DNA from: a virus | Length of the DNA stretch: 29,670 bases | Direction: 5' to 3' (one strand) | Virus record (IMG/VR): IMGVR_UViG_3300009181_000250 | Coordinates: 1 to 29,670 of that record | Shown here: positions 2,729 to 27,896 of the stretch, one piece after another | How the letters are laid out: each line of letters begins with the position of its first letter | How positions within the stretch are numbered: the stretch's first letter is position 1 | Notes under the pieces: model-generated | The model's input: only the letters and a program-made list of their open reading frames with translations | The model's database searches: none | Told to the model about the DNA's origin: nothing | Program-made: the position numbers and the translations under genes

Positions 2729-2736
2729 TATTTAGA
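2729..2736 (-). promoter_or_regulatory. Late promoter-like element TCTAAATA
   Basis: Minus-strand TCTAAATA, one or two bases from the T4 late promoter core TATAAATA. It overlaps the TAA stop of the 133-residue gene and ends 31 nt before the ATG of the 340-residue fibre gene. Position and register match four other junctions in the window. Inferred from sequence only. Confidence 0.4.
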
Positions 2737-3133
2737 CCACGGTCCATACGGAATTTGCAGGAAGGGTGACCGTAACACCCGTATTCAGCGTGACTGGCCC
2801 AAATGTACCTGCATTATAGCCAGTTGTAATCGTATAGTCTGAAGTTATGTTTGAAGTGTTTTCGAAGAAAGCTCTGTTACCACCAGTACCAGTAGCACCA
2901 GATGCAGTTCTCCAAATGCTAGAAACAGAATCATAGACTTCAAGAGAATTGTAATCTGTGTTATAGCGTAGAGTAGCAGTAAGATTAGCAGTAGGTCTCT
3001 GTGCTGTGTTGCCTGAAGGTATGATAACACCACCATCAGAAACGATGCGGATCAAGTTATTTGATGGTATTCTATCAAAACGGTTAGTGGCCGTTTGATC
3101 GAACCAGATATTTGCAACACTTAGAATTGACAT
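2732..3133 (-). CDS. Short tail fibre / virion protein, C-terminal paralogue of the gene at 10474-10707
   Basis: A 133-residue beta-rich protein. The N-terminus (MSILSVANIWFDQTATNRF) resembles the start of the 242- and 77-residue fibre genes, a likely anchor to the tail. A central stretch (QRPTANLTATLRYNTD, then LEVYDS and W) is typical of small phage fibre proteins. The last 45 residues contain AGTFGPVTLNTGVTVTLP and end in WTVV, closely matching the end of the 77-residue protein (AGTFGPVTI, PANSTWSVV). A perfect TATAAATA lies 27 nt before the start. The two proteins may be alternative or successive segments of one fibre system; function is inferred from context. Confidence 0.65.
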   Translation of the reverse strand: MSILSVANIWFDQTATNRFDRIPSNNLIRIVSDGGVIIPSGNTAQRPTANLTATLRYNTDYNSLEVYDSVSSIWRTASGATGTGGNRAFFENTSNITSDYTITTGYNAGTFGPVTLNTGVTVTLPANSVWTVV

Positions 3134-3160
3134 TTCTTAATCCTTAAATCCTTTTGCTAG

Positions 3161-3168
3161 TATTTATA
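3161..3168 (-). promoter_or_regulatory. T4-type late promoter element TATAAATA
   Basis: An exact TATAAATA on the coding strand, overlapping the TAA stop of the 226-residue gene and ending 27 nt before the ATG of the 133-residue gene. T4 late promoters need only this -10 octamer, recognised by the gp55 sigma factor. The upstream stop codon sits in the same register as at 2729, 10732, 13675 and 22484. Confidence 0.55.
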
Positions 3169-3844
3169 CGATTGCCACTCTAGCACCTACGTTGATCTGT
3201 AGAATATATCCAGTTGAAATTGAGATTGGGCCAGCCGCTAGTGAGTTGTTGCCTGAAGATATATAGACGTTACCAGATAACGTATTAGAATGAACACGGA
3301 AAATGTCACCATACGCAGATGGATTCACTGCACCGTTATTGCCTTGATATGAACCGCCGCCACCTGAACCAGCAGTATTAGCCTTAGCAAATGCTGCATT
3401 AGCAATGATTGCGGTTGTGTTGCTATAATCATAAGCTGCACCAGCCGCTATGTTTGCTGCGTTAGCCTTTGCAAAGGCTGCAATGGTATTTGAATCAACC
3501 AGGAACGCATATAGATTAGCTGTGTTAGCTTTATCATATGCTGCACCAACAGTAGGTGCTGATATAGTAATCGTATCATTGCTTGAGTATGCTATGATAC
3601 CAATACCTGAACCAGGTAAAATTGTCAGAACGTCATTAGTAACAGCAGCAACAGCTAGAGTGCCGTTAGCGTTGACAGTACCATAACTTGGAACACTTGG
3701 AGAAAATTGTACGACAGTGCCATTAGAGGCTGCATAGAAAAGTTTACCATCAGCATAGTTAAGAGCTAGTTCACCATTAGCCAGTGAACTAGGAATGTTA
3801 GATGGTGTACCCGATTTCTTTATCGCAATTGTTGTGTTAGGCAT
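3164..3844 (-). CDS. Tail fibre protein, paralogue of the gene at 13678-14241
   Basis: A 226-residue fibre protein. Residues 7-45 carry the hallmark phage fibre N-terminus (KKSGTPSNIPSSLANGELAL, then NYADGKLFY). The middle has 'AYDKANTANLYAFLVDSNT' repeats (AFAKAN units) also found in the 498-, 187- and 242-residue proteins. The last 60 residues contain YQGNNG, DIFRV, AGPISI and LQINVGARVAIV, matching the end of the 187-residue gene (KGNNG, DIFRV, TGPLSV, LQINTDARVVII). The start overlaps the previous stop as TAATG, indicating translational coupling to the coiled-coil gene. It is probably a structural shaft or adaptor rather than an enzyme. Confidence 0.7.
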   Translation of the reverse strand: MPNTTIAIKKSGTPSNIPSSLANGELALNYADGKLFYAASNGTVVQFSPSVPSYGTVNANGTLAVAAVTNDVLTILPGSGIGIIAYSSNDTITISAPTVGAAYDKANTANLYAFLVDSNTIAAFAKANAANIAAGAAYDYSNTTAIIANAAFAKANTAGSGGGGSYQGNNGAVNPSAYGDIFRVHSNTLSGNVYISSGNNSLAAGPISISTGYILQINVGARVAIV

Positions 3845-4353
3845 TAAAAGTCATTTGTTGCGTTACCTGCTATAGCTACTGGTACATTACTTACTTCATC
3901 GGCTGCATTACCAGCTATCGCCACTGGCAGAAGAGACACCTCATCGGCCGCATTACCAGCAAAGCCTTTGCCTTTTTTGGTATTTATAGTTTTCTTGGCA
4001 GGGTTGAGCTTTTCTTCTAGTAGTGCAATCTTGATATCGCGCTGATATAACTCTTGTTTCATCTGCCCTAACTGGTTCAATGCAGTATCAGCCTGCCCGG
4101 CTTTCCTCATAGCAACATTGTACATGTCTTCCCAGTGCTGCGCTTGCCCACGGAGAACTGACATTTCATCAGAGTTGAATTTGATTGTTTCGAGTTGAGA
4201 TGCAAGAGAACCAATGATAGAATCCTTTTCGGCAACAATATCATTGGCCATCTTGAGTTGCGTCTTCAGTTGAAGGACGACATTAATCTTTTCGTGTATT
4301 AGCCCAATAGCACTATCAATATATGCGTTAACATATGCGTTTGATTCACTCAT
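3844..4353 (-). CDS. Coiled-coil virion accessory protein with C-terminal 15-residue repeats
   Basis: A 169-residue protein. It starts MSESNAYVNAYIDSAIGLIH, a sequence style I associate with uncharacterised proteins in fibre loci of T4-like marine phages. Residues 20-116 are a predicted long helix with heptad-like spacing (LQLKTQLK, IIGSLASQLE, QMKQELYQRDIKIALLEEKL). After a basic linker (KKTINTKKGKGF, 120-131) come two copies and a partial third of a 15-residue unit, AGNAADEVSxxPVAI (132-146, 147-161, 162-169). GAAGGAAA precedes the start. The next gene begins inside its stop codon. A fibre-assembly or trimerisation role is a guess; the function is unknown. Confidence 0.6.
   Translation of the reverse strand: MSESNAYVNAYIDSAIGLIHEKINVVLQLKTQLKMANDIVAEKDSIIGSLASQLETIKFNSDEMSVLRGQAQHWEDMYNVAMRKAGQADTALNQLGQMKQELYQRDIKIALLEEKLNPAKKTINTKKGKGFAGNAADEVSLLPVAIAGNAADEVSNVPVAIAGNATNDF
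3847..3960 (-). repeat. Tandem 45-bp coding repeat (2.5 units)
   Basis: Two and a half in-frame copies encoding AGNAADEVSxxPVAI at the 3' end of the coiled-coil gene. The units differ mainly at synonymous positions. Confidence 0.75.
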
Positions 4354-4381
4354 AATGTATTTTCCTTCACTTTAGTAAAAA

Positions 4382-5878
4382 TTAAAAAGTTCCTCCATCC
4401 AACATTGCGAAGTTAGGAACCCCTGTAGAACTGGCCTGTAGTACCTGCCCTTCGGTACCGGCTGCTGTTACTCTGAGAGGGCCTGAAGTATTACCGAACA
4501 CGATGCCATTGTTCGTGAATGAAGCGACACCAGTACCGCCATATGCTACAACCAGTGTACCGCTAGAGATGTTAGAAGCGTTGATGGTTGATGCTGCAAG
4601 GTTAGCTTTAGCAAATGCTGAGGTAGCAATGAGGTTTGCTGTAGTTACTGCACCTGCTACTGCATTAGCCTGTGTGAAAGCTGCTGTAGCATTAGCATCA
4701 ACTAGGTAAGCATAATAGTTTGCGCTGTTAGCTTTAGCGAAAGCTGATGTAGCGATAAGGTTAGCCGTTGTGACAGCACCAGCTACAGCGTTGGCCTGTG
4801 TGAATGCAGCCGTCGCGTTTGCGTCAACCAAAAACGCATAGTAGTTTGCAGAGTTAGCCTTGGCAAAAGCGGCCTGCATTGCTGTATTGACATAGCTGAC
4901 GTTAGCTACGGCAATGTTTGCTGTATTATATGCGTTTGTGATCCAGCTGATCGCATTGATACCACCGAGAATGATATTGCTGGTGCGAAGCGTTGCATTC
5001 AGAATAGAGATGGTGAAGTTATTGCCAGCAGGATCAATTACGTTATTGGTAGGTTCTTTGTCGTAACCTTCGAAGACATACCATTCTTTGGTACCAGCAT
5101 CACGAAACACACCAGTATGAATAGTAGAACATGCACCGTTATTGTAGTTAGCAACAAAACCGATATCTACAATGTCAGAGGTATAGTTGTTACCAGCGAT
5201 ATACAGCAACGGATCATTAACAACATATGATGCTACGTTGATGAATGTGGTAGAACCAGTGAGAGACAAGTTACCGGTGATATTAACGTCACCGTTGATC
5301 GTGCCGCCAGATGACGAGAACTTGGTATTTGAGTTACCAAAGGCTGCAACAGCAATGATACGGGTTATATTTTCAGAGTCGAATGCAGAACCAGCGGAAA
5401 GATTAGCTGCATTAGCCTTAGCAAAGGCCGCAGTGGTATTAGCATCAATAAGGAACGCATAGTAGTTGGCTGAGTTAGCCTTAGCAAAAGCAGAAGTAGC
5501 AATGAGATTAGATGTGGTTACTGCACCACCAACATTGTTAGCCTGAATGAATGCTGCTGTAGCATTTGCGTCTACCAGATATGCGTAATAGTTTGCTGAG
5601 TTAGCTTTTGCAAATGCAGCATTAGCCTGTGTGAATGCAGACTGAGCCATAGAGGCGCTGTTAGATGAATTGAATGCAGACTGAGCAATGGTATAAGTGG
5701 TATTCAGAAGGTCGATATAGTACTTACCGCCAATAGCGAGAACGTCATTACCACCAGAAGAACCAATGAATAGAACATTAGATGAGTATGAATAGGCCAT
5801 CTCACCTGCTGAAAGGGATCCACCTCCAGGTTGGTTTGTTGAGGTCGATCTCTTGACCTGGATGAGTGTATTTGCCAT
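4382..5878 (-). CDS. Long tail fibre protein with 42-residue repeats
   Basis: A 498-residue fibre protein. Residues 1-52 are a fibre N-terminal module (IQVKRSTSTNQP, LSAGEMAYSY, LFIGSSGG, IGGKYY). Repeats of SANYYAYLVDANATAAF, QAN, GAVTT and NLIATSAFAKAN occupy about 95-157 and 343-426. Between them, residues 200-305 form a globular module (VNDPLLYIAG, 'VDIGFVANYNNG', HTGVFRD, EWYVFEGYDKEP) of a kind that recurs in T4-like marine phage fibres. The C-terminus (YGGTGVASFTNNGIVFGN, EGQVLQASS, ending LDGGTF) ends like the neighbouring 82-residue protein (LNGGTF). Probably a trimeric shaft protein of a side or short tail fibre; the receptor is unknown. Confidence 0.75.
   Translation of the reverse strand: MANTLIQVKRSTSTNQPGGGSLSAGEMAYSYSSNVLFIGSSGGNDVLAIGGKYYIDLLNTTYTIAQSAFNSSNSASMAQSAFTQANAAFAKANSANYYAYLVDANATAAFIQANNVGGAVTTSNLIATSAFAKANSANYYAFLIDANTTAAFAKANAANLSAGSAFDSENITRIIAVAAFGNSNTKFSSSGGTINGDVNITGNLSLTGSTTFINVASYVVNDPLLYIAGNNYTSDIVDIGFVANYNNGACSTIHTGVFRDAGTKEWYVFEGYDKEPTNNVIDPAGNNFTISILNATLRTSNIILGGINAISWITNAYNTANIAVANVSYVNTAMQAAFAKANSANYYAFLVDANATAAFTQANAVAGAVTTANLIATSAFAKANSANYYAYLVDANATAAFTQANAVAGAVTTANLIATSAFAKANLAASTINASNISSGTLVVAYGGTGVASFTNNGIVFGNTSGPLRVTAAGTEGQVLQASSTGVPNFAMLDGGTF
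4601..4852 (-). repeat. Two tandem 126-bp coding repeats in the 498-residue fibre gene
   Basis: Adjacent units encode almost the same 42 residues (SANYYA(F/Y)LVDANATAAF, TQANAVAGAVTTANLIATSA, FAKAN). At DNA level the units differ at many third codon positions. A related, more diverged copy lies at about 5471-5596. Confidence 0.8.
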
Positions 5879-5879
5879 A

Positions 5880-6128
5880 TTAGAATGTTCCTCCGTTTAG
5901 AACCGGCAGTTCTTTTACTACATATTTTTGTGTCGCCGAATCATAAACCAAAGTATTATTATTTGCTGGGCTGACCGCTTTAACATCTGTAAGCTCAGAT
6001 AGTATACTTGCACCACCGCCAGCACCAGTAGCAATACCGACACTGATAGTTCTGATTGTATCTCTGTTCTGGCTATTTATCGAAACTCGGTTCCCAGGAG
6101 ATGAGTTGACGGATACTTTGATGGCCAT
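5880..6128 (-). CDS. Small virion/fibre-associated protein ending in LNGGTF
   Basis: An 82-residue protein, start overlapping the previous stop as TAATG. The N-terminal 35 residues are polar and beta-prone (MAIKVSVNSSPGNRVSINSQ). The rest (LSELTDVKAVSPANNNTLVY, DSATQKYVVKELP) is a short phage-fibre motif, and the end LNGGTF matches LDGGTF of the next gene, which starts one base after this gene's stop. That shared tail suggests both insert into the same fibre interface. No enzyme motif. The function is inferred from context only. Confidence 0.6.
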   Translation of the reverse strand: MAIKVSVNSSPGNRVSINSQNRDTIRTISVGIATGAGGGASILSELTDVKAVSPANNNTLVYDSATQKYVVKELPVLNGGTF

Positions 6129-6466
6129 TATCGTGTGATTCCTGGTGTGACATTGATGATGCCTTCTAGTATTCTCACAACATAATTATTAGTATCTGTA
6201 GTCTCTACATCGAACAGGTAACGGCCGGCCTTGATGTTTGAGGTGTTGGCCGGCGTCATTGACATTTGCACATTGCCTGTGTTAGCACTCACAATAGTAC
6301 AAGTGATGTTTGCTGTAGCATTAGCCGAATAGTATGAACGACGCATCTGGCTGGTTAGAGTATAGCCAGAGATATTCACAGGTGCGTTTGTCACATCATC
6401 CGTGATTGTCAGGGTGTTAGTGAAAGAAGCACCCTGGTCCATATACAGTTCTACATACGCCGCCAT
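6128..6466 (-). CDS. Small beta-rich phage virion protein (baseplate/fibre adaptor-like)
   Basis: A 112-residue protein, all beta in appearance: VELYMDQGASFTNTLTITDD, PVNISGYTL, SQMRRSYYSA, TANITC, AGRYLFDVET, VRILEGIINVTPGITR. This compact immunoglobulin-like pattern with 'DQGASF' and 'GRYLFDV' is common in tail loci of T4-like phages of aquatic bacteria. It resembles small N-terminal fibre or receptor-binding upper-domain proteins. Its ATG directly follows the upstream TAA, and its own stop overlaps the next ATG, so the 66-, 112- and 82-residue genes should be co-translated. Exact role unknown. Confidence 0.6.
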   Translation of the reverse strand: MAAYVELYMDQGASFTNTLTITDDVTNAPVNISGYTLTSQMRRSYYSANATANITCTIVSANTGNVQMSMTPANTSNIKAGRYLFDVETTDTNNYVVRILEGIINVTPGITR

Positions 6467-6667
6467 TTAGTTACCTGTGTTTGCTAGTGCAGCCATTTGT
6501 GCTGTTATAGTTGCTAATTGTGCTTGGAGTTCTCCAAGTGTTGGTGCTGGTGGTACTACCGGCACAACCAAAGATGCGACGCTGGCCAACATATCAGACG
6601 CTTCTTCAGGAGTAAACTGAATTACTGATACTGTGCCGGTTTGAACATTTGATTCAATGCGTTCCAT
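6467..6667 (-). CDS. Small helical protein in fibre array
   Basis: A 66-residue protein with a strong AAGGAGA ribosome binding site eight bases before the ATG. An N-terminal half (VSVIQFTPEEASDMLASVAS) and a Pro-rich linker (VVPVVPPAPT) precede a short helix (LGELQAQLATITAQMAALA) that could form a coiled coil. It follows the 280-residue receptor-binding gene and may assist fibre assembly. I do not recognise a family. Confidence 0.5.
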   Translation of the reverse strand: MERIESNVQTGTVSVIQFTPEEASDMLASVASLVVPVVPPAPTLGELQAQLATITAQMAALANTGN

Positions 6668-6677
6668 AAAAATCTCC

Positions 6678-7520
6678 TTATTCGTACATTATGTTTATAG
6701 AACCGCCGATAAGAGCGCACACCGCCGCCGAGTTGTTGAGGGCAGCTATGCGAACTCGGTCGAGTGTGCCGCTCAAAGTAAGGGCGCCGCCGCCAGCCGA
6801 TCCTGCTGATGCAGTTGGAACGGACCCTAAAGTATGAGTTTCGATCCATGTATTCGATCCAAAACTATTAAGTATAACAGTTCCATATACATTCGAAGTT
6901 GATCCAAAAACAAATGTAGTTAACAGAAAACCTGACCCGCTAATCAACTGATCGGAGTTGTAACCATATGAGCTGTCAGTAGTTGCATTTTTATATCCGC
7001 TGGTTACAAAAGAACCAGCGCCAATTTGAACGTATAAATAAATCTGTGATGAGTTTGCAGTAATATTATTAAAATTTATTAGAACACGCTTGGCTGTCGC
7101 AGGAATACCCGTAAAGTCGATGGCAGTAGTGGTGTTTCCACCTGCTGGAGAAACCGCAGTTCCTACTGTGATGCCTCCAGAAAGAGCAGACGATATCCAT
7201 GCCGTCCCGTTGCTGGTCATCACATTTGCTGAGGTACCTGGCGTAACGGCCACAACAGATGTTCCACCAATCGTAGTAGCACCACTTATCACCAAGTTAC
7301 CAGTTACGTTAACACTACCACTGATATCTAACTTCTGTGTTGGCGTAGTTGTTCCGATCCCTACGTTGCCGGTGGTACTAACCGTCATCGCAGTCGTACC
7401 GCCAGACTGAATCGTAAGAGCGGTTGCAGCCGGGCTACTAAGAGTTGTGACAGTCTCTGTTCCGGTAGTATTAGAGGCCGGTGTAGTGATACCTGTCGAA
7501 CCGTTAACTATTACTGGCAT
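6678..7520 (-). CDS. Tail fibre / receptor-binding protein, paralogue of the gene at 1675-2697
   Basis: A 280-residue fibre protein. The N-terminus MPVIVNGSTGITTP and the stretch TGNVGIGTTTPTQKLDISGS are standard phage fibre modules. Residues 55-120 are short beta-helical repeats. The C-terminal head from about 125 (TTTAIDFTGIP, KRVLINFNNI, TSGY, NTWIE, LTLSGTLDRVRIAAL, final NIMYE) is homologous to that of the 340-residue fibre. The start overlaps the preceding stop as TAATG. Two alternative heads of one family in one locus suggests either different receptors or different places on the virion. Confidence 0.75.
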   Translation of the reverse strand: MPVIVNGSTGITTPASNTTGTETVTTLSSPAATALTIQSGGTTAMTVSTTGNVGIGTTTPTQKLDISGSVNVTGNLVISGATTIGGTSVVAVTPGTSANVMTSNGTAWISSALSGGITVGTAVSPAGGNTTTAIDFTGIPATAKRVLINFNNITANSSQIYLYVQIGAGSFVTSGYKNATTDSSYGYNSDQLISGSGFLLTTFVFGSTSNVYGTVILNSFGSNTWIETHTLGSVPTASAGSAGGGALTLSGTLDRVRIAALNNSAAVCALIGGSINIMYE

Positions 7521-7699
7521 TATCGTTTTTCCTCAGAAGCAGGTGCTATTGTTAGTTGGCCCTTCTCTACAAGGGCCATAATGTTGGCGTAGTCGGTGTT
7601 TGCTGGGTCAAGTGGCACATAGCTTGTTACGCCGTTGATGTCGCAGCGGATGCTGGTGATGGCGCTGTTGAAGGCTATGTACTGAGCGTTTGTGTGCAT
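7520..7699 (-). CDS. Small fibre-associated protein, copy 2 of a paralogous pair
   Basis: A 59-residue protein beginning MHTNAQYIAF. An earlier in-frame ATG at 7705 exists, but GGAG at 7708-7711 is only two bases from it and eight from the ATG at 7699. The paralogue at 8961-9137 has the same GGAG-8 nt-ATG arrangement, which decides the start. The core VPLDPANTDYANIMALVEKG and QLTIAPA is shared with the paralogue. Each copy directly follows a 'RNRIINGNMVIDQRNAG' receptor-binding gene, whose final Glu-Leu-stop codons form the ribosome binding site. That coupling suggests an assembly or cap role for the fibre; this is inference. Confidence 0.6.
   Translation of the reverse strand: MHTNAQYIAFNSAITSIRCDINGVTSYVPLDPANTDYANIMALVEKGQLTIAPASEEKR
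7558..7577 (-). other. Intragenic hairpin, copy 2
   Basis: A perfect 7-bp inverted repeat GGCCCTT/AAGGGCC with a six-base loop inside the 59-residue gene. It is repeated exactly at 8996-9015 in the paralogue. No U-tract follows, so it is not a typical terminator. Confidence 0.4.
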
Positions 7700-7701
7700 G
7701 A

Positions 7702-9137: not shown

Positions 9138-9139
9138 AA

Positions 9140-10474
9140 TCAAAGCTCCGAGTTTGCAGCCCAACCGCCAGCCACATTAAACAGGACGGACTGAGATACT
9201 TGATTATTAACATAAAGAGATGTTGAATCAGGACTTTGTGCATTTACATCAGCAGTAAATGTAAATGTTGTTCCACTCGTAGGTAAAGTTCCACTAGAGA
9301 TATATCCCCAATAACCACTACTATTTCCATATGTTGTCATAGTTGGTGTGCTGCGTTTAGGAACAAAAAATCGAATTTGGGCGCTTTGTCTAAGATTGTT
9401 CGTCCAAGGTGCAGCAACAGCGATATTTGTTGCTCCATTTGCAAATGTACTAACACTACCTCCATTAGCGGGTGCTGTTCCACTAGCAAAAGATGTTTCA
9501 TAATACCGCTGACACTGCGCCAACTGATCGCTGTAGATTTGCAGCTCGTAAGGAGTTGCTTTGGTACCAACCTCAAGTTGGACGCCTGTGATGTAAAAGG
9601 TTGCACCATTGGTGCCGACAACGGAGGTCTGACCCGTAGGGCCGAGGTAGAGAGTGGAACCCCAAGAACCGGCAGTTGTTGTTCTGCTGCTCCCCGCACC
9701 AAAACAAAAGAACACTTCAATCCCAGTGTCATTTGTTTTGTTCCATGTGCCGGAAGTGTCGCCTGCAATGGTTACAGACTTCTGTTCCCATGTATTTGCA
9801 GCACTTATAGTGTAAGAAAAAACATAGAACCTATTAGCAGCAGCGTTAAAGAAAACACCCCCAAAGGTTCCGGTCAGAGAACTGCGAACCCAAAAAGACA
9901 GTGTGACGGTGGAAGCGCCCGCAGCGCCCCAACCAAGGTCAGCTACGTTATAACCTTCAACTCTTTGTTTAACGCCAAAACCCTCCGTTGCACCAATACT
10001 GTATGCAGAAGAAGATGTGATGCCGAGATAATTTGTAAAGCCGGTGGGGGAAGTTACACTTCCGGCGTTCTGCTGTGCAGTGAACTTTGAAGCTGCGCCT
10101 ACAGAAAACTGCCAACGGTCAACGGAATATTGCCCGTCAGTTGCAGTCACACTCGCCCCAGCATTCCTCTGGTCAATAACCATGTTTCCATTGATGATGC
10201 GGTTGCGTTTAAAGCTAGAACTCATTACCACAGTACCAGTTACGTTACTATTGGCCGCAGTCAGAGTACCAGCAATCGTCAAGTTACCTGTTACGTTACC
10301 ACTCACCGCTAAGGTAGTAGCAGTTATATTAGCAATATTAGAAGTGCCATTAGCATCTGAATAGAGAACTGTACCATTGATATTAGGCAGCGTCAGTGTG
10401 GTGTCAAGTACACCTGTACCTGAATCAAGGGTGACAGAACCACCACCGACACCAGTTTTAATTGTTACAGGCAT
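9140..10474 (-). CDS. Receptor-binding tail fibre protein, copy 1 (paralogue of 7702-8961)
   Basis: A 444-residue protein. The start MPVTIKTGVGGGSVTLDSG at 10474 overlaps the preceding stop as TAATG; an upstream in-frame ATG at 10489 would intrude into the previous gene and lacks support. An N-terminal anchor (VTLDSGTGVLDTTLTLPNI, VLYSDANGTSNI) leads to shaft repeats and then KRNRIINGNMVIDQRNAGAS and YSVDRW. The lectin-like domain (TVTLSFWVRSSLTGTFGG, GATFYITGVQLEVG, TPYELQIYSDQLAQCQRYY) is close to copy 2. The last 110 residues are unrelated to those of copy 2, so the two proteins share a scaffold with different tips. Probably host-receptor binding. Confidence 0.75.
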   Translation of the reverse strand: MPVTIKTGVGGGSVTLDSGTGVLDTTLTLPNINGTVLYSDANGTSNIANITATTLAVSGNVTGNLTIAGTLTAANSNVTGTVVMSSSFKRNRIINGNMVIDQRNAGASVTATDGQYSVDRWQFSVGAASKFTAQQNAGSVTSPTGFTNYLGITSSSAYSIGATEGFGVKQRVEGYNVADLGWGAAGASTVTLSFWVRSSLTGTFGGVFFNAAANRFYVFSYTISAANTWEQKSVTIAGDTSGTWNKTNDTGIEVFFCFGAGSSRTTTAGSWGSTLYLGPTGQTSVVGTNGATFYITGVQLEVGTKATPYELQIYSDQLAQCQRYYETSFASGTAPANGGSVSTFANGATNIAVAAPWTNNLRQSAQIRFFVPKRSTPTMTTYGNSSGYWGYISSGTLPTSGTTFTFTADVNAQSPDSTSLYVNNQVSQSVLFNVAGGWAANSEL

Positions 10475-10707
10475 TAGACAACACTCCAAGTAGAATTAGC
10501 AGGCACAGTTAAGGTTACATTACTATTTATAGTCACTGGCCCAAATGTTCCTGCATTCTTACCTGTGCTGATAGTAAAGTCAGTCGTCATATTGGTATCG
10601 TTCTGCCAGAAAATCTGGTTGTTACCACTGCCGACAGCCATACCAAGCGCGGTGTTCTGCGTTGTTCCGTCTCTGAAGTTAATACTCGTGACTGTAATTG
10701 TTGACAT
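10474..10707 (-). CDS. Short tail fibre / virion protein, paralogue of 2732-3133
   Basis: A 77-residue protein. MSTITVTSINFRDGTTQNTA is an N-terminal anchor like those of the 133- and 242-residue proteins. The rest (IFWQNDTNMTTDFTISTGKN, AGTFGPVTI, LTVPANSTWSVV) is the short beta module ending many phage fibre proteins. An ACTAAATA element overlaps the upstream stop 24 nt before the ATG, and the stop overlaps the start of the 444-residue receptor-binding gene. It could act as a small adaptor in front of that fibre. Confidence 0.65.
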   Translation of the reverse strand: MSTITVTSINFRDGTTQNTALGMAVGSGNNQIFWQNDTNMTTDFTISTGKNAGTFGPVTINSNVTLTVPANSTWSVV

Positions 10708-10731
10708 TTATTAGCTACCTGTGTTTTCTTG

Positions 10732-10739
10732 TATTTAGT
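10732..10739 (-). promoter_or_regulatory. Late promoter-like element ACTAAATA
   Basis: Minus-strand ACTAAATA overlapping the TAA stop of the 78-residue gene, 24 nt before the ATG of the 77-residue gene. It is two mismatches from TATAAATA, in the same stop-codon register as the exact copies. Confidence 0.4.
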
Positions 10740-10971
10740 CTTTTTCATTTGGTTGGATAATAGCCGTAGACGTATCCCTATCTATCGTTAAAACACCCTC
10801 ACAACAAACATTCCATTGCTCACCATCACGTTCATCCCAGACAGGCGCAGTAATACTCAGATGCTTGAACAATCGTTCTTTGCCATCTTCGAACACGCGC
10901 CAAACATGTTCCGCTGTCCCTCTACCTGGTTGCCCTCGTGTCTGATTGAAGCGAATACAAAACTTACTCAA
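10735..10971 (-). CDS. Conserved small phage protein, TTG start
   Basis: A 78-residue protein (SKFCIRFNQTRGQPGRGTAE, HVWRVFEDGKERLFKHLSI, WNVCCEGVLTIDRDTSTAII). I recognise the style as a conserved uncharacterised protein near oxygenase and fibre genes in T4-like marine phages, but cannot give a function. The start is TTG at 10971; it overlaps the TGA stop of the oxygenase gene as TTGA, with GAGGT five bases upstream, so it should be translated by re-initiation. The cysteines (Cys5, and two adjacent in WNVCCEG) and acidic/aromatic residues are notable. A partner of the oxygenase is possible by neighbourhood only. Confidence 0.65.
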   Translation of the reverse strand: MSKFCIRFNQTRGQPGRGTAEHVWRVFEDGKERLFKHLSITAPVWDERDGEQWNVCCEGVLTIDRDTSTAIIQPNEKD

Positions 10972-11672
10972 ATTACCTCAACATCAGAGGTAGAACAAGC
11001 CGTTGGCGCGACTGGTTGAACACTGACATTGAAATGTATAAAACGCATAGGTTTACTGGCTGCATGTCGCGTGAATGAATGGGCCAACCAAGAATTGGTG
11101 AACATACACATACCTGGTTCAGGTTCAAAGTTAATCATATTCGATGCTGCGGTAGCTTGTGACATATCTTTTTCAGGAAGGTTCAACTGAACTTTACCGG
11201 CCTTTGGATCATGAAACAGCACACGCGAACTATCTTTAGGAACATCGATGAAATAGAAACCAACAATCTGTGATCCGTAACCATGAACATGTTGTTCCAT
11301 CGCAGAGTGTTTGTGATGCTCTTGACACCAGAACTCGGTGAAGTAAGTGTTAAAATTTTGCATGGCATAACCTTGCCCATCCAAAATATCCCATGCTGCT
11401 TGTGCAATGAAGTTAGCCATATCGAGCATACGAGGATCACTGTTAAGATTATCTGTCATCACAAGTGGATAAATCTCATTGAGTTTCTTAATCTCCTTCT
11501 TCTTGATAGCAAGTGCTTCGTTCACTACTTCTTTAGCCGTATCAAGAAACTGTGGGGCTTTAGTGCTATAGATTACCACAGGGAAATAAAATAGGGTGTC
11601 CATCTTTATCTCAATAGGTTCAGCAATTGTAGGTTCTATCACATCATTCAACTGGCCAGCTTTGCACATCAT
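10968..11672 (-). CDS. Putative 2OG-Fe(II) oxygenase
   Basis: A 234-residue protein resembling the phage 2OG-Fe(II) oxygenase group (Pfam PF13759-like, TIGR02466-like). These are Fe(II)- and 2-oxoglutarate-dependent dioxygenases that hydroxylate proteins or small substrates. The double-stranded beta-helix core runs from about residue 110 to 215: FWCQEHHKHSAMEQHVHGYG with His128/His130, then GFYFIDVP, VLFHDPKAG, PGMCMFTNSWLAHSF with the distal His198, and the 2-oxoglutarate-binding candidate Arg210 in 'KPMRFIHFNV'. I assign His128 or His130, an acidic residue still to be identified, and His198 as metal-ligand candidates; this is family-based. AAGGAGA precedes two adjacent ATGs (11672 or 11669). 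The substrate is unknown; neighbours suggest a virion protein. Confidence 0.7.
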   Translation of the reverse strand: MMCKAGQLNDVIEPTIAEPIEIKMDTLFYFPVVIYSTKAPQFLDTAKEVVNEALAIKKKEIKKLNEIYPLVMTDNLNSDPRMLDMANFIAQAAWDILDGQGYAMQNFNTYFTEFWCQEHHKHSAMEQHVHGYGSQIVGFYFIDVPKDSSRVLFHDPKAGKVQLNLPEKDMSQATAASNMINFEPEPGMCMFTNSWLAHSFTRHAASKPMRFIHFNVSVQPVAPTACSTSDVEVI

Positions 11673-11681
11673 ATAATCTCC

Positions 11682-12053: not shown

Positions 12054-12062
12054 ATCCCCCCC

Positions 12063-12917
12063 TTATATCTTTAGAGTGCCAGTTCCAGTGAACTTATAAA
12101 TTCTGTACCCGCCGCTTACGGTTACAGTCGGAGAACCTGTTGTTGTCGCGGCAGCATAACTGTCTGGGTATCGCATCCAAACGACACCGCTTCCGCCACT
12201 ACCATTGCAACAAGAAGTAGTGCCGCTGCCACCCCCTCCCCCACCTGTGTTCACAGTTGCATTGCCACCTCTCACACCACCCGTCTGTCCATTCCCACCG
12301 CCACCTGTTCCGCCTGTTCCGCCAGCGTATGTTTTTGCGCCGCCGCCGCCGCCACCCGCATATGTTCCACCAAATATAGATGAAGTTTTTCCAGCGCCGC
12401 CATTGCCGCCAGTTGTACCCGTCGTAGCACATCCAACAGCCGACGCGCCGCCGCCGCCAGAGCCACCATAAGTTGATGCCGGTTTATTGCCACCGGCAAA
12501 ACCTTGCCCAGAAATACCCGCCCCACCAGTGATGTAACAAGCGGGATTGTTATTGCCGCCCGCTCCTCCACCAGAACCACCCGCAGTTCCACTGTCACTA
12601 AAAAGATAGTAACCACCACAAGTAACACAATAATAATTATAATAAAAACCGCTTCTTCCACCGCCAGTAGCTTCCACAAGAGTTGCGTTTTCAACAATTT
12701 TAGAGTTTGATCCATTGCCACCACAACTACCCGCACCAACTGTTATGGCGTAAGTTTTACCAACAGCGCCTGTAAAAGAATTTTCTAGATACCCGCCTGC
12801 GCCGCCGCCGCCGCCTGCGGCCCAGTACCCCCCGCCACCGCCAGCGACAACAAGGTAGCAAAATTTAACTACGCCACCGCCACCGGCAGCACCAACTAAA
12901 ATATTATAGATAGACAT
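12063..12917 (-). CDS. Glycine-rich tail fibre adhesin
   Basis: A 284-residue protein, start MSIYNILVGAAGGGG at 12917. That start overlaps the preceding stop as TAATG; a longer frame beginning at 12965 would only add residues antiparallel to normal fibre starts. From residue 16 runs CYLVVAGGGGGYWAAGGGGG, AGGYLENSF and YAITVGAGS, the standard start of phage glycine-rich domains. Glycine-rich loops then alternate with short strands to about residue 235. The C-terminus (GSGGSGVVWMRYPDSY, TVTVSGGYRIYKFTGTGTLK) is the usual closing strand pair. Such domains in phage adhesins pack as polyglycine-II-like sheets and contact host surface proteins or glycans. Eight cysteines are unusual. GC content is locally high. 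Confidence 0.75.
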   Translation of the reverse strand: MSIYNILVGAAGGGGVVKFCYLVVAGGGGGYWAAGGGGGAGGYLENSFTGAVGKTYAITVGAGSCGGNGSNSKIVENATLVEATGGGRSGFYYNYYCVTCGGYYLFSDSGTAGGSGGGAGGNNNPACYITGGAGISGQGFAGGNKPASTYGGSGGGGASAVGCATTGTTGGNGGAGKTSSIFGGTYAGGGGGGAKTYAGGTGGTGGGGNGQTGGVRGGNATVNTGGGGGGSGTTSCCNGSGGSGVVWMRYPDSYAAATTTGSPTVTVSGGYRIYKFTGTGTLKI

Positions 12918-13645
12918 TAAGTTAACCCGCCTCCAGTAACAACGAATGTATTGGCCGCTACACAAATCACTGTTGCCAACCCTCTTTGAGCAAGTACTCT
13001 TGTACCCGTTGTTGCAGTGCCTACGAGATATGCTGTCACGCTAGTATTTGAGACAACATTGATAGAAGCGGCTGAGTTATTATAGATAGTGATGTTATCG
13101 CCTGTTGTAAAAACTGCGTTTGGTATAGCTACGTTACCTGTCGCGAATGAGATGACCTTACCAATATCATTTGCACTGAGGGCGTAGTAAGCTGATTGAC
13201 TGACGATAGGCAGAATTCGAAGCCCGCCTAAGTTATCGGTAATTGTACCAGTTACTATCAAATTGCCGATTACGTTACCAGTAAAGGTAGTAGGGCCAGT
13301 ATGAATCGTAGCACCAATTACCGTCAAGTTACCTGCTACGATGTTGCTGGTAACCGTTAATGCGCCCGCAAAAGTTCCAGTTGAGTTAGATAGTGAAGTG
13401 TTGGCTCTAGTGAAAGCTGCATTAGACTGAGCAAAGGCAACCTCGACAGATGTATTCAATGAAACTTCGGTAGAACCGCCGCCCTTATAGATAATACGAT
13501 TGTTCGCTACAAGGTCACCATTACTTCTAAATTGAGCAACCTCTTTACCACCTGAAACAATAGAAATATTCCAAGAGTTAGCTATAGAAACACTGGCATT
13601 ACCAGCATCATTGAAATAAACTTGATTGACTCTTAGAGTTGACAT
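12917..13645 (-). CDS. Tail fibre protein
   Basis: A 242-residue fibre protein. MSTLRVNQVYFNDAGNASVS is an N-terminal anchor shared in style with the 77- and 133-residue proteins, followed by a phage shaft (FRSNGDLVANNRIIYKGGG, AFAQSNAAFTRANTS). Residues 95-135 are paired GNVxGNLxVTG strands. The C-terminal 90 residues (ILPIVSQSAYYALSANDIGK, VAIPNAVFTTGDNITIYNNS, ATVICVAANTFVVTGGGL) form a compact head that is common in phage fibres. A TATAAATA element lies 29 nt upstream. The next gene, the glycine-rich adhesin, starts inside its stop codon. Confidence 0.7.
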   Translation of the reverse strand: MSTLRVNQVYFNDAGNASVSIANSWNISIVSGGKEVAQFRSNGDLVANNRIIYKGGGSTEVSLNTSVEVAFAQSNAAFTRANTSLSNSTGTFAGALTVTSNIVAGNLTVIGATIHTGPTTFTGNVIGNLIVTGTITDNLGGLRILPIVSQSAYYALSANDIGKVISFATGNVAIPNAVFTTGDNITIYNNSAASINVVSNTSVTAYLVGTATTGTRVLAQRGLATVICVAANTFVVTGGGLT

Positions 13646-13674
13646 TGTTCACTATTATCCTTGTTCTCTTCTAA

Positions 13675-13682
13675 TATTTATA
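13675..13682 (-). promoter_or_regulatory. T4-type late promoter element TATAAATA
   Basis: An exact TATAAATA overlapping the TAA stop of the 187-residue gene and ending 29 nt before the ATG of the 242-residue fibre gene. Same stop-codon register as four other junctions. Confidence 0.55.
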
Positions 13683-14241
13683 TGATGACTACACGAGCAT
13701 CTGTATTGATCTGTAGAATATTGCCAACATTGACGCTTAGTGGGCCAGTAGCAGATGCGTTCTCTCCAGCATCAAAGTAAATGTCTTGATTGACATAGTT
13801 GACATTGACACGGAAGATATCGCTTCTACCATAGTTGTTGTTGCCTCTTGGCCCATTATTGCCTTTGAAGTAACCACCACCTTCTGCATTGTTGGCTCTT
13901 GCAAATGCTGCAACTGAGATTGCGTTTATGGTGTTTGCATATGAATAAACTGTCTGAGCAAGTGGTTCTGCATTAGCTCGGTCGAAGGCTAGAAAGCTGA
14001 TTGAACCGCCAGTGTTAGCCTTATCAAAGGCGGCTGTAGTATTGGCATTGACAAGATATGCAAAGTAGTTGGCTGAGTTGGCCTTATTGAATGCAGCACC
14101 AACAGCACCAGCAGCAAGATTGGCTGTAGTAAAAGCACCATTAGCAAACGTCAAGCTTTGCTCTGCGGCCGCAATAATTTGGTTTGTGCGTACACGCCAA
14201 ACGTCAAATGTGTCTGTAATGTTTACGTTTGCTAAAGCCAT
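13678..14241 (-). CDS. Tail fibre protein, paralogue of 3164-3844
   Basis: A 187-residue fibre protein. It opens NVNITDTFDVWRVRTNQIIA, a typical N-terminal attachment motif in T4-like phage fibres. Residues 30-115 are AFTTAN and AFNKANSANYFAYLVNANTT repeats. The C-terminal module (GGYFKGNNG, SDIFRVNVN, TGPLSVNVG, LQINTDARVVII) matches that of the 226-residue fibre. The gene starts one base after the stop of the short coiled-coil gene, with weak Shine-Dalgarno sequence, so coupling is likely. Confidence 0.7.
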   Translation of the reverse strand: MALANVNITDTFDVWRVRTNQIIAAAEQSLTFANGAFTTANLAAGAVGAAFNKANSANYFAYLVNANTTAAFDKANTGGSISFLAFDRANAEPLAQTVYSYANTINAISVAAFARANNAEGGGYFKGNNGPRGNNNYGRSDIFRVNVNYVNQDIYFDAGENASATGPLSVNVGNILQINTDARVVII

Positions 14242-14242
14242 T

Positions 14243-15203: not shown

Positions 15204-15231
15204 TATCACAACACCTCATAAAATGTATATA

Positions 15232-18200: not shown

Positions 18201-21126
18201 GTGCAATTCTGGTGAACCAAGAAGATAGGTCTTTTCTACCGATAGCTTGCCCTGCATATGGAGAGATAGAAGGATATGGTGTGATGTTGAGTACGGCCAG
18301 AGCCATAGCATTGTCTGGTGTGCGAGGTGTGATAGGTATAACTGAAGGCACACCACGAATTGTTGAGAAGTTTCCGTCTTGGTCAACAACTACCATATCT
18401 CTTCTTGATAGGTAATATGAATAGTCATATGTGATTGTGCTACCTGAAGCAGGTATTCTCAAACCGCTACCAGAATAGTAGAATGTTGTTGAGACCAAAG
18501 GATTTGTTGTTGCGCCACCAACTGTTGTAGAATCGGATGCTGTGATTGTTTTCACAGGTCTGAAATCAACATGGTTTCTCAGGTCATATTGCTGCCCTGA
18601 TGTAGGTGATTTATAGACTGGGATATTTTCAGTCTTGATGGTATTTGATGCAACACCAGTATCATCGATTGGATATGAATCCACAGAGAAGTAACCAACA
18701 CCGGCAGTGAAGTCTGGATAGAAATAGTCTAGGTTTACGAGCAAGTAATCTGTCGCACCAAGAGTTACATTTGGAGTTATGGTGCCGAGATCATAGTGCC
18801 CATCTCTCTGCCCACTATCAACTTTGAATGATGAAGTTATATCGGTGCCGTCTACTAGAGATGCTGGCGCAGAACCAGTCTTCTTCACAATATTGTTAAT
18901 CTTGTAGACATCTGAGAAGCCAAGTGTGAATGGGCCAGAAATGCCAGCTGTAGCACAATTGATGATTACATAGCGAGACTTTCTGAGAAGCTTGTTGCTC
19001 TGGCTAGCTGCTGTTCTAGATACTCTTGAAGTAACTGTAGCGGCTACTGTAGTTCCATAACTCTCTTTAAGGTCGATAGCAAGAGATGTTGATGTAGAAG
19101 ATACGGCACGGGTTACACCAGTATTACCTTTTGTTGTAAGGTCGATGATATCACCAGTCTTGTAGGCCTTGAACAGAGTTGCTGATGAAACGGTAGATGC
19201 TGGTACCGAAGTGAGGTTAAGAGATGATGAACTTGCAATGCTTTCGATAAAGTATGTACCAGCCACACCAGAGATTTCTAGCTTATCACCAACATTGAGA
19301 ACGGTATCATATGCAGTACCTGTACCTGTTAGAGTTTTACCAGTATTAGATGCGGTACCACCAACTCGAACATTGATACTGGCATCAAAAGATAGTGTTA
19401 TTTCACGTTTTTGTGTTGCAGAAAGTGCAGCAGAAATACCATAAGGAGTAACTTCGTTTGTAATGCTATAAGGAATAGTAAGTGTACCGGCTGAAGCTAT
19501 TGATAGCCCACTAGCAGTTTTCTTGAATGTGAATGTAGTATCATTTGATGTATCTGAGCTATCTTTTATCTTACGAACGCTATTAGAACCAACATAGTAT
19601 AGTAGTGGTGTTAGAGATGCTTCTTGTAGAACTGCTGTGTTTGAACTGCTGAGAACAATGTCAGCACCAAAATCGGCCAAGGTAGCATCATTATAATACA
19701 AGCTCTTTACGCTAGAGAATGAGTTTGTTCCATTCATCTTGATATCTAGCAGATAAACATCTAGCTTACCTGTTGGTGTACCAAGAGTTCCTGAATTGTA
19801 CTCGATTGTCTTGAGTATAGCTGAACCGATATTGTTACCGGTTTGGGCGCCTGTTGAAAAGAGTGTATTAGATAGTCTGGCCTGAGCCTTATCATAAAGT
19901 TGAATTGTCAACCCTTGGTCGAGAGTTGGTGATCCTACAGCTTCTTTAACGGTGACATATGAACCCATAGTAGCTGAAGAAAGCTGAGAGTTCACATAGT
20001 TATAGTCTGCTGACTTATCAACTTCAAGGAATGTAGTTGTTAGTGGGCCAACCTCGAAACCTTTAACATATGCCAGCCCTGGTTCAACACCAATAGAAAG
20101 CAACGATGTGTTACCATTAGCCGCAGATGTTAGCAATCCGCCATTATTAGCGATGTCAAGATGTTCACGAATACGAATGTTCATACCGGTCACATAATAG
20201 TCACCAGACTCATCGAATGTTCTCTTAGCTAGTTCGCTGCGAAGGATATTATATTGTGAACGCTCAAATGTCGTCTGGATAATACCGTCTTTGATTGTGA
20301 ATAGGGTTACGAAGTCTGGTGGGCCAATATCATCATTGATATCCACAACAGTCAGCACAGGATCAAGTTTGAATCTATCTGCACCAGGTGCTGAGTAGTT
20401 AGAGGCCTCTTGAGCAGGATCAAGAAGAGATGTGTCATCTGAACTGCGGATAATATCTTCACCAACAAGGAAACCAACCTTACAGGTTGGCGTATCGCTG
20501 TACTTGCTCAGAATTGTTTTCTGACCTGAGAATGAAATGAAATGTTCTTTAGCAAAGAAAACACCATCTTCGATTGAGAAGATAGAACCTTTACCAGTAG
20601 GATCAGTGTTGAGAACAACCAGTGTACCAACATCTTCTGCGTACAGAGTTTCACCGGCTTGGAATGTTTTAACTTGAGAGTTTGCATTAGAAACATTGGT
20701 GTAGTTAATCATCAATGTTTTTGTGTCAGATGTGGTTTCTACACCGTCTTCGATAATTTCAACATACGCTGTAATACCTGAAGTGTTACCTGTTATAATC
20801 TTGTTTTGGAATAGTGAGAGGTTGACTTCATTGTTGCTAGAGTCGGTATCTTTAACCTTGACATACCAGATTGGATTACCTGTTGTAGCACACTCCAGTG
20901 TGAATGCACCAGGAAGAACGATACTACCTTCACGAAAAACATGTTTACCAAAGCTATCGATCTGATGCTGAAGCATCGACTGTACTTGAGTGAGTTCTCT
21001 GGCCTGAACAGCATAACCTGGGCGGAAAAGAATACGATGGAAGTTCTTCGTCTTATCGAAGTCATCGTAGTAAGGTGTTACGTTAAAGTCTGTTCTAAGA
21101 GTACTCGTATTTGCTTCAAAAGTCAT
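15232..21126 (-). CDS. Very large virion/tail fibre protein, DUF4815-type
   Basis: A 1964-residue protein. The N-terminus matches the phage family I know as DUF4815: VTPYYDDFDKTKNFHRILFR at 17-36, PGYAVQARELTQVQSMLQ, then GSIVLPGAF by residue 73. Residues 80-1000 include Thr/Ser-rich beta domains and the motif YDLRNHVDFRPV. A six-glycine run precedes KSCLAYSFVARAPDGEEGMF at about residue 1390, beginning a conserved block (VDVFVAQKHP-like, FEIREM, SPLFLYNKTQYAFIMHPE, YYFWVSRLGE). The C-terminal 250 residues are jelly-roll-like (VTLAEGQDAEDIKIVLTAYR, ARSWIELEKG, YKYFAIKVGL). In this gene order it lies where T4 places gp9 and gp10, so a peripheral baseplate or fibre-anchor role is likely, but homology to those proteins is not visible. 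Confidence 0.75.
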   Translation of the reverse strand: MTFEANTSTLRTDFNVTPYYDDFDKTKNFHRILFRPGYAVQARELTQVQSMLQHQIDSFGKHVFREGSIVLPGAFTLECATTGNPIWYVKVKDTDSSNNEVNLSLFQNKIITGNTSGITAYVEIIEDGVETTSDTKTLMINYTNVSNANSQVKTFQAGETLYAEDVGTLVVLNTDPTGKGSIFSIEDGVFFAKEHFISFSGQKTILSKYSDTPTCKVGFLVGEDIIRSSDDTSLLDPAQEASNYSAPGADRFKLDPVLTVVDINDDIGPPDFVTLFTIKDGIIQTTFERSQYNILRSELAKRTFDESGDYYVTGMNIRIREHLDIANNGGLLTSAANGNTSLLSIGVEPGLAYVKGFEVGPLTTTFLEVDKSADYNYVNSQLSSATMGSYVTVKEAVGSPTLDQGLTIQLYDKAQARLSNTLFSTGAQTGNNIGSAILKTIEYNSGTLGTPTGKLDVYLLDIKMNGTNSFSSVKSLYYNDATLADFGADIVLSSSNTAVLQEASLTPLLYYVGSNSVRKIKDSSDTSNDTTFTFKKTASGLSIASAGTLTIPYSITNEVTPYGISAALSATQKREITLSFDASINVRVGGTASNTGKTLTGTGTAYDTVLNVGDKLEISGVAGTYFIESIASSSSLNLTSVPASTVSSATLFKAYKTGDIIDLTTKGNTGVTRAVSSTSTSLAIDLKESYGTTVAATVTSRVSRTAASQSNKLLRKSRYVIINCATAGISGPFTLGFSDVYKINNIVKKTGSAPASLVDGTDITSSFKVDSGQRDGHYDLGTITPNVTLGATDYLLVNLDYFYPDFTAGVGYFSVDSYPIDDTGVASNTIKTENIPVYKSPTSGQQYDLRNHVDFRPVKTITASDSTTVGGATTNPLVSTTFYYSGSGLRIPASGSTITYDYSYYLSRRDMVVVDQDGNFSTIRGVPSVIPITPRTPDNAMALAVLNITPYPSISPYAGQAIGRKDLSSWFTRIAPIRQTMRDIGVLKDRIVNLEYYTTLSLLEKSAIDFQILDTNGLNRFKNGVFVDTFTSHILGATTNPDYKIVVDPKEKSIRPTYTMESFDYDYISGSGVARSNDIITLAYSEVAFANQARVTTTRNTERTTYRFIGNLVLSPDSDVWVDTQFAPDAALTFGPTDQEVTELDAGLVTEWDAWRTNITGYAVYRGSVDGESGGESKNPNYVGTYSSKEEAQSIANQYTNSTNVTIETIYNTARTGIDNFLIVNSDTQALGNKVVDVRIVPYIRPQTIKVSGRGLKPYARFYAYFDEQNLSSYVTPLTEAEFNASRLTKTASSEGSNLKADAEGVVFFLLRLPSEKRFTTGSKRVILTDSPTNSAEDATTLGVGYFTAQGLIQQKQNTILTVRQVIPQQKEVSQGYFTSGFENVPQIVQGGGGGGKSCLAYSFVARAPDGEEGMFLTSIDVFVAQKHPTLGCWFEIREMDSGGKITRNQIPLSEVWIKNADIPISTNGTDNPLRVRFASPLFLYNKTQYAFIMHPEAVNPNYYFWVSRLGENDINTNTPVTARPMSGTMYTTNNNLNWDIVPDMDLTCIAYRADFTTGTTGQAIIGNRGVEKLSVANVSNELTRYGEFLTTGDKLTLTANGTINVTDLLIGRTSNANSSVVGISGSVYTMSNTNYVSGETLQIRRANAYMTSISATVSSLTNGRGQLSKFKSSANLNLVTLTSSNGYFAQNDYIRNTTTGDYATIQTIQNFRYSVADFEPGYLTFNKTSIDFEMQTYSNTGTMGSYTKINPNENYYFSTEQALYSRSNEIASLSSDRSNKIRVSMSTATNFLSPVLDLSRTHTVYVDNIINNDATGEGGSSGGYLGNRYISKTVTLAEGQDAEDIKIVLTAYRPPNTDVRVWVKILNGEDSDSFVARSWIELEKGGNGDSVYSSLSNRDDFKEYEFDFASSYMTGSQGQVQYTNSQGIVFTGYKYFAIKVGLMASNSAVVPRVADLRTIALQI

Positions 21127-21141
21127 TTCTTATTGCTCTCT

Positions 21142-22464
21142 TTAAAACTTGATGACGATCTTGAAATCTTCGGTCTGATCGGCCGCTCTCGTAATTGGTA
21201 AAATGTTGTTGACGTAGAGTATCTGCCCGGAGTATCTCATAAGTTCTGGTTCAATGATGTTGGTTACGAACCTTGCTGTAGAACTGTTAGCGCCTACAAG
21301 AGACTGTGAGGTTGGTGATCCTGTTGTATTTATCAGTTTAACCACGCCGTTTGTAGAGTCCCAAGAAACAATTTTACCATTGAAGAATGATGTATCAAAG
21401 CTACCGCCCTGATATACAATCTCGTCTAGGTCATAATCACCAGATCCTATGGTAGATATTGTATGAGTTTGTGCAAACGTCAGATTGGTGGACACATTGC
21501 TGTCAGTTTTCTTTGGATCTATAAGAAGAGCGATCTGTCTATAGTCGTTCGATATGTCAAAAACTCCTTGCTCAGTATTTCTGAGCGATCCATTGACCAT
21601 AGCATACGAAGCACCCAGCTCATATATTGGATCACTTCCGTGCCCACCTGAAGGTGAGATTATGGCTCTTGCTGTTGCATCTGCTCCACCGCCACCTGAT
21701 ATAGAGACGGTCGCATAGCTATAACCAAAACCATAATCATTCACTGTTATGCTAGATATGGTATTTGATACCGTATTTACTGTTGCTGAGGCTGAAGCGG
21801 ATTCTCCATCACCAGCAATAGTTACAGATACGTTTGCAGGGTCTGTAAAATTACGCCCACCATTTGTGAGTAGAATAGAATCTATTTGCCCTTCGATGGC
21901 CTGATTTTGAACTTGCCATTGCAATGAGCCGTCGTCAGAAGTCAATGCTCTTACAGGCGTATACTGTGAAGTGGTAAATCTTAATTGGTCACCATCAGAA
22001 ACACTATACATATATTTCCAAACATAACCGTCAGACGTTTCAGAGAACGCGGCCGGATTGATAGCTGTTGGTTCTACAGTTGAGAACGAACTATTTGCAT
22101 TTGATATACACTTATAGACATTATACTCACTTGTCAAAATATAAAATTGAGTGTTACCATCATACAGATTGCTGTTTGTATGGTCGTAAGCAATGTACTT
22201 TGTATTTGCAGCCCAATCAAATCGAGGAATAACATGAACAATGTCACCAGAAAAAAGTCTTTTTCCGCCTATCATATTCTGCCAGATTTGATTTACTGTA
22301 GCTACTGATGTGTTTGCAATGTCAGGATTTGAATCGTTAGCCCATGAAGTAACTTTACCAAAAGTCATATAGAGACTAGTATTTGCTACCGTTCTTGAAG
22401 GTGCAAGTCTAAACTGATCTGCGGCATATACTCGCATATTTGTGAATGTTGCTGATGAACTCAT
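21142..22464 (-). CDS. gp8: Baseplate wedge protein gp8
   Basis: A 440-residue baseplate wedge protein; T4 gp8 has 334 residues. Recognised from FRLAPSRTVANTSLYMTFGK, the WxxDxxPD-like 'WANDSNPDIA', NMIGGKR, VIPRFDW, NTQFYILTSEYNVYKCI and GYVWKYMYSVSDGD (about 142-155), and its location after gp6 and the gp7-like gene. In T4, gp8 joins the gp6-gp7-gp10 wedge arms. The extra length is explained largely by an insertion at about 192-290 holding two GxGY-type repeats (NGGRNF and DYGFGYSYATVSISGGGG), the kind also present in the two other wedge proteins. AGAGGA precedes the start and TATAAATA lies 19 nt upstream. Confidence 0.85.
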   Translation of the reverse strand: MSSSATFTNMRVYAADQFRLAPSRTVANTSLYMTFGKVTSWANDSNPDIANTSVATVNQIWQNMIGGKRLFSGDIVHVIPRFDWAANTKYIAYDHTNSNLYDGNTQFYILTSEYNVYKCISNANSSFSTVEPTAINPAAFSETSDGYVWKYMYSVSDGDQLRFTTSQYTPVRALTSDDGSLQWQVQNQAIEGQIDSILLTNGGRNFTDPANVSVTIAGDGESASASATVNTVSNTISSITVNDYGFGYSYATVSISGGGGADATARAIISPSGGHGSDPIYELGASYAMVNGSLRNTEQGVFDISNDYRQIALLIDPKKTDSNVSTNLTFAQTHTISTIGSGDYDLDEIVYQGGSFDTSFFNGKIVSWDSTNGVVKLINTTGSPTSQSLVGANSSTARFVTNIIEPELMRYSGQILYVNNILPITRAADQTEDFKIVIKF

Positions 22465-22483
22465 TTAATCCTCTGATTCTTTA

Positions 22484-22491
22484 TATTTATA
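22484..22491 (-). promoter_or_regulatory. T4-type late promoter element TATAAATA
   Basis: An exact TATAAATA overlapping the TAA stop of the gp7-like gene and ending 19 nt before the gp8 ATG, with AGAGGA in between. Best candidate for internal late re-initiation within the baseplate block. Confidence 0.55.
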
Positions 22492-27882: not shown

Positions 27883-27896
27883 AAACTTATTTATCC

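Follow-up and report, generated by a model that had tools for sequence, protein, structure and literature searches.

Probable late-promoter octamers at gene junctions of a phage with T4-like baseplate genes: overlap with stop codons and a fixed spacing ahead of gp25

Introduction

The late promoters of bacteriophage T4 carry the element TATAAATA at positions −13 to −6, in which the first base is loose, and CTAAATA is documented as the late element of phage Aeh1 (PMC1524935). The late element of S-PM2 is NATAAATA (PMC2984593). The late-promoter calls of Sullivan et al. in 2010 permitted an overlap of up to 10 bp with the upstream gene (PMC3037559), and in the parts available of the cyanophage and Aeh1 late-promoter literature examined an overlap with the stop codon is not discussed. 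Gene 25 of T4 is translated from a split ribosome-binding site, with a hairpin between the Shine–Dalgarno (SD) sequence and the AUG (PMC3014915). In leaderless mRNAs the 5′ end lies at or close to the start codon, for which AUG is strongly preferred (PMC9031893), and a passing remark in the literature describes phage transcripts as frequently leaderless (PMC5312081).

Here we compare with these systems the gene junctions of a whole IMG/VR record, a fragment of 29,670 bases (the window). We consider it highly probable that five octamers in this window are T4-type late promoters placed over stop codons, with no coupling of termination and transcription, and that a further octamer ahead of gp25 represents a second class that would start transcription on the AUG itself.

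Octamers over stop codons in the window

In the window a group of T4-like baseplate genes, for gp5-like, gp25, gp6, a wedge protein and gp8, is followed by fibre-like genes. According to a preliminary description, late-promoter octamers lie at five gene junctions, each supplying the stop codon of the upstream gene and each followed after 19–31 nt by a new start. All five octamers were found as described, on the minus (coding) strand; the TAA at octamer positions 3–5 is the upstream stop in 5/5, and the distances to the next start agree. The genes and octamers concerned are as follows.

1675..2697, minus strand, gene downstream of the 2729 octamer (from its translation); a probable fibre gene by position, with no PHROG match
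2732..3133, minus strand, fibre-like gene flanked by the 3161 and 2729 octamers (phrog_34255, phrog_5342; translation)
10474..10707, minus strand, fibre-like gene preceded by the 10732 octamer (phrog_34255, phrog_5342)
12917..13645, minus strand, gene downstream of the 13675 octamer (from its translation); no family match
21142..22464, minus strand, baseplate wedge gene gp8, preceded by the 22484 octamer (Phage-Gp8, phrog_438)
22487..25399, minus strand, gene of a baseplate wedge protein, located between those of gp6 and gp8, with its stop within the 22484 octamer (phrog_17744, PF23786); its residues 707–945 match SGL and lactonase beta-propeller models
2732–3133, 3164–3844, 10735–10971, 13678–14241 and 22487–25399, minus strand, genes with a TAA stop inside a junction octamer
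2729..2736, minus strand, octamer TCTAAATA; TAA is the stop of 2732–3133; 31 nt to the start of 1675–2697; predicted +1 at 2723 (G)
3161..3168, minus strand, octamer TATAAATA; TAA is the stop of 3164–3844; 27 nt to the start of 2732–3133; predicted +1 at 3155 (A)
10732..10739, minus strand, octamer ACTAAATA; TAA is the stop of 10735–10971; 24 nt to the start of 10474–10707; predicted +1 at 10726 (A)
13675..13682, minus strand, octamer TATAAATA; TAA is the stop of 13678–14241; 29 nt to the start of 12917–13645; predicted +1 at 13669 (A)
22484..22491, minus strand, octamer TATAAATA; TAA is the stop of the wedge gene 22487–25399; 19 nt to the gp8 start; predicted +1 at 22478 (A)

Four of the five junctions had been taken to lead into fibre genes. 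Family matches bear this out for 2732–3133 and 10474–10707, but 12917–13645 and 1675–2697 remain unmatched. The 22484 octamer was rejected as a fibre-gene junction, the next gene being the baseplate gene gp8.

Exact copies of TATAAATA are more frequent in the window than expected (7 versus 2.05, a count reached in 0/100 shuffles). The looser WMTAAATA is not enriched over the whole window (9 versus 6.9 expected, with 30/100 shuffles reaching this), so that what is non-random is the placement of the octamers, and counts alone were dropped as an argument. Three more coding-strand copies of TATAAATA are intragenic, where they encode -Ile-Asn- (within KKTINTKK, PVTINSNV and GALINKDN); these were rejected as promoters, being codon-driven, and since they arise by codon choice, octamer counts by themselves overstate promoters. 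As to placement, TAA stops are followed by ATA in 5/27 cases, compared with 2.2% of the non-stop TAA triplets on the same strand (rough binomial P of 2.5e-4). At junctions with a gap of at least 14 nt the octamer is stop-embedded in 5/9 (P of 5e-7), a descriptive value, as the cut was chosen post hoc and the sites are partly dependent. The octamer was not found at any junction with a gap below 14 nt, rather than being equally frequent there; these tight junctions are a constrained control, in which the overlap of stop and start fixes the bases past the stop.

Relation to T4-type late promoters

The junction octamers correspond to the T4 late element, being TATAAATA or a close variant with a loose first base. 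The variants agree with the literature, and those of the T4-like cyanophages and Aeh1 are the same as observed here. In relatives, ACTAAATA occurs commonly at junctions other than that of 10732. The octamers lie upstream of, and on the same strand as, late structural genes, identified by family for gp8, gp25, 2732–3133 and 10474–10707, with 12917–13645 and 1675–2697 unmatched. As the T4 element lies at −13 to −6, the sixth base after the octamer corresponds to +1. The predicted +1 is a purine at all five window sites, A at four and G at 2729, and among 165 deduplicated leadered sites, which include those of T4 itself from a stretch at 70–120 kb, 106 have A at this position and 6 have C.

The gp8 junction was compared in 80 relatives, which were clustered to 42. 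The octamer was scanned as NMTAAATA, so that weaker promoters go uncounted, and was found 18–38 nt ahead of gp8 in 36 of the 42 clusters; the corresponding rates are 1.2% for random windows of the coding strand and 5.3% for shuffles. Within these 36 clusters its TAA is the upstream stop in 28, whereas the octamer lies past the stop in 6 and in another register in 2; it persists where it is not the stop, and is thus kept independently of that role. G019 and G020, which have 73–75% nucleotide identity over the baseplate genes, and G001 retain the gp8 and gp25 sites but differ elsewhere. Two copies of TATAAATA spaced by 11 nt, about one helical turn (TATAAATAGTATATAAATA), lie ahead of gp8 in L070–L073, L079, L082 and L084–L087.

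Genes for gp55, gp33 and gp45 were not seen in the 29.7-kb window fragment. In relatives longer than 140 kb, gp55 is present in 5/5 and gp33 in 4/4 of those tested, and we infer that the window phage itself encodes gp55. The phage sigma factor gp55, on the host RNA polymerase, would read the octamer as a −10 element. In an almost spacer-free genome the promoter would overlie the end of the upstream gene, with the TAA of NMTAAATA doubling as its stop, and some 20–30 nt after the octamer would be left for the transcription start, a ribosome-binding site and the next AUG. The proposal that the octamers act as independent late promoters is thus supported comparatively, by the conserved position ahead of gp8, the preference for A at +1 and the presence of gp55 and gp33 in the long relatives. 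On this sequence evidence the five octamers are very likely late promoters; promoter activity and the exact start sites are what we infer from it.

Overlap with the stop codon and its precedent in T4

T4 has TATAAATA overlapping the stop codons of gene 17 (ahead of gene 18), gene 21 (ahead of gene 22) and gene 38 (ahead of t), where the following gene starts after 28, 27 and 17 nt, respectively. The octamer and its overlap with the upstream TAA at the 18, 22 and t promoters are the same as in the window, and, as T4 has the overlap at three junctions, the arrangement is not peculiar to the window phage. The share differs, with 3 of about 14 plus-strand junction octamers in T4 (70–169 kb) and 5 of 6 in the window. 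Hence the stop overlap is real, ordinary and already present in T4. Every octamer brings a TAA with it, so that in a compact junction the upstream gene will frequently terminate at this triplet; the overlap is an economy of bases, and nothing leads us to suppose that ribosome and polymerase are coupled.

Such coupling, in which the overlap would let ribosome termination and the start of late transcription affect each other, had been suggested in the preliminary description, and we regard it as highly improbable. The overlap is indeed the commonest arrangement, with the upstream stop at the TAA of the octamer in 54 of 125 sites with a recognisable stop; it is frequent at gp8, and it exceeds the other possible overlap, the +4 register (5 sites). 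However, an upstream gene that drifts in frame into the octamer is forced to end at its TAA, many junctions have the stop just before the octamer, and T4 shows both forms, so that no mechanism is needed. It is also very unlikely that the sequences are not promoters at all and that TAAATA is favoured near stops by efficient termination or A/T-rich junctions. The octamer does contain TAA and does sit on the window stops. Against this, it is absent from the coupled junctions of the window, with the constraint given above, and among 61 distinct contexts of the C-terminal fibre domain of 10474–10707 in relatives, none of 44 TAA stops is followed by ATA. The octamer is moreover retained ahead of gp8 and gp25 even where it is not the stop, and its spacing tracks the downstream start. 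If the octamers are late promoters, as we propose, the stop overlap would be a way for a compact phage to fit independent late promoters without spacers, and promoter annotation should not demand an intergenic position, a rule that T4 already breaks.

A fixed 5-nt spacing ahead of gp25

A sixth junction octamer, overlooked in the preliminary description, lies ahead of gp25.

27481..27882, minus strand, gp25 baseplate wedge gene (GPW_gp25, phrog_261)
27888..27895, minus strand, octamer GATAAATA, located beyond the gp5-like stop codon and exactly 5 nt ahead of the ATG of gp25 (27880–27882); predicted +1 at the A of the AUG (27882)
27883–27895, minus strand, octamer and spacer before gp25, from the sequence

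The distance from the octamer to the gp25 ATG was determined in 65 clusters, taking ATG starts only. It is exactly 5 nt in 42 and 4–6 nt in 47. The others comprise 2 clusters with 8–9 nt, 8 leadered ones with at least 16 nt, and 8, including T4, that are without an octamer. The gp25 of the isolate HTVC008M is preceded by TATAAATA-GTCGT-ATG. The sequence of the 5-nt spacer varies between clusters and the upstream stop lies anywhere from 8 to 33 nt before the AUG, so that the position of the octamer follows the AUG rather than the stop. In the gp25 tree the 4–6 nt class is clustered, with 8 parsimony changes, at least 4 of them forced by supported branches, gains and losses being undistinguished.

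Over all loci, the distances from octamer to start have a sharp peak at 5 nt and a broad peak at about 18–31 nt, and five control motifs give no 5-nt peak. The loci were picked by relatedness to the window genes, so that gp25 is over-represented in this count; 9 sites at 5 nt are left when gp25 is removed. The deduplicated open frames 5 nt past an octamer begin with ATG in 45 cases, GTG in none and TTG in 5.

With T4 geometry, a spacing of 5 nt would place the start of transcription on the A of the AUG. We propose that the gp25 octamer belongs to a second class of late promoter, from which the late mRNA would be leaderless. A leaderless gp25 late mRNA is probable on these comparisons. In the 47 clusters with 4–6 nt spacing the octamer fills the usual SD slot, and an SD-like tetramer is present within 20 nt upstream in only about one third of them. 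There is also evidence against a leaderless message: the window gp25 has AAGGA farther upstream, with an 11-nt spacer to the ATG, so that gp25 could still be expressed from transcripts that read through from the gp5-like gene, and the 5 TTG frames stand against the 45 with ATG. The predicted gp25 message would share with leaderless mRNAs such as that of lambda cI a 5′ end at or close to the AUG; unlike the latter, it would be that of a baseplate gene and come from a late promoter of the gp55 type. The comparison with T4 gene 25 is similar, as the same gene would have a non-standard translation start in both, but T4 relies on a hairpin formed between the SD and the AUG, whereas in the window the putative promoter itself fills the SD slot.

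Two other accounts of gp25 expression were weighed against this reading. The octamer may be a real promoter that serves gp6 and the genes below, with gp25 translated from read-through transcripts by translational coupling; the upstream stop 8–33 nt before the AUG and the AAGG found farther up in some clusters are in keeping with this. We nevertheless consider it unlikely, since it offers no reason for an exact 5 nt in 42 clusters with differing spacers, while the gp8 spacing in the same group ranges over 18–38 nt. A split ribosome-binding site, in which SD and AUG lie 27 nt apart and are brought closer by a hairpin, is known for T4 gene 25, and the window has its AAGGA 11 nt before the AUG, yet the hairpin is reported to be missing in distant T4 relatives (PMC3014915) and most of the clusters are without SD-like tetramers, as noted; this account is hardly credible here.

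Taking the leaderless reading, it seems likely that a widespread group of T4-like phages, made up of metagenomic contigs and HTVC008M, has two late-promoter geometries, a loose one with a leader and ribosome-binding site, and a fixed octamer-N5-AUG arrangement without a leader, used mainly for gp25 and occasionally for others, such as a gene of about 170 residues in G004, G007 and G009. A limited open-access search by titles and the openings of abstracts gave no description of leaderless T4-type late transcripts among the matches listed, and a limited open-access search for late transcription starts mapped in T4 or in cyanophage Syn9 gave no fitting match among those listed; HTVC008M is not mentioned in a pelagiphage transcriptome paper (PMC12753301). 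As far as this limited literature search extends, the gp25 promoter class is new. The gp25 geometry matters more than the stop overlap and is the part worth following. If it is true, one fixed distance from the late promoter would set both the transcription and the translation start, and aquatic phages would have a conserved set of leaderless late mRNAs, which is a direct prediction for every genome.

In these three long relatives the gene of about 170 residues has its octamer 4–6 nt before the ATG, with the start codon at 45855 in G004, 46775 in G009 and 118042 (minus strand) in G007 (0-based offsets).

Junctions in the fibre region

The preliminary description further held that fibre modules can be swapped together with their own promoter, which is not established by the relatives. 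The 3161 octamer is conserved in L101/L089, a relative at 69% amino acid identity, 28 nt ahead of the start, and the L101 junction homologous to 2729 has TATAAATA, again as the stop, 26 nt ahead of the next gene. However, the 13675 octamer is absent from L011/L012/L090, the nearest relative, which share the downstream gene and have AATAAATA 43 nt before its start instead, and the fibre domain of 10474–10707 occurs without the octamer. No relatives with the whole 10732 junction were found. The possibility that the octamer is a by-product of this C-terminal domain was ruled out by the same 0/44 count.

The genes 2732–3133, 10474–10707 and 12917–13645 have similar N-termini (MST/MSI...), and the first two have a C-terminal fibre domain in common, as if built by shuffling. 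A 2OG-Fe(II) oxygenase gene (10968–11672, phrog_81) lies amid the fibre region.
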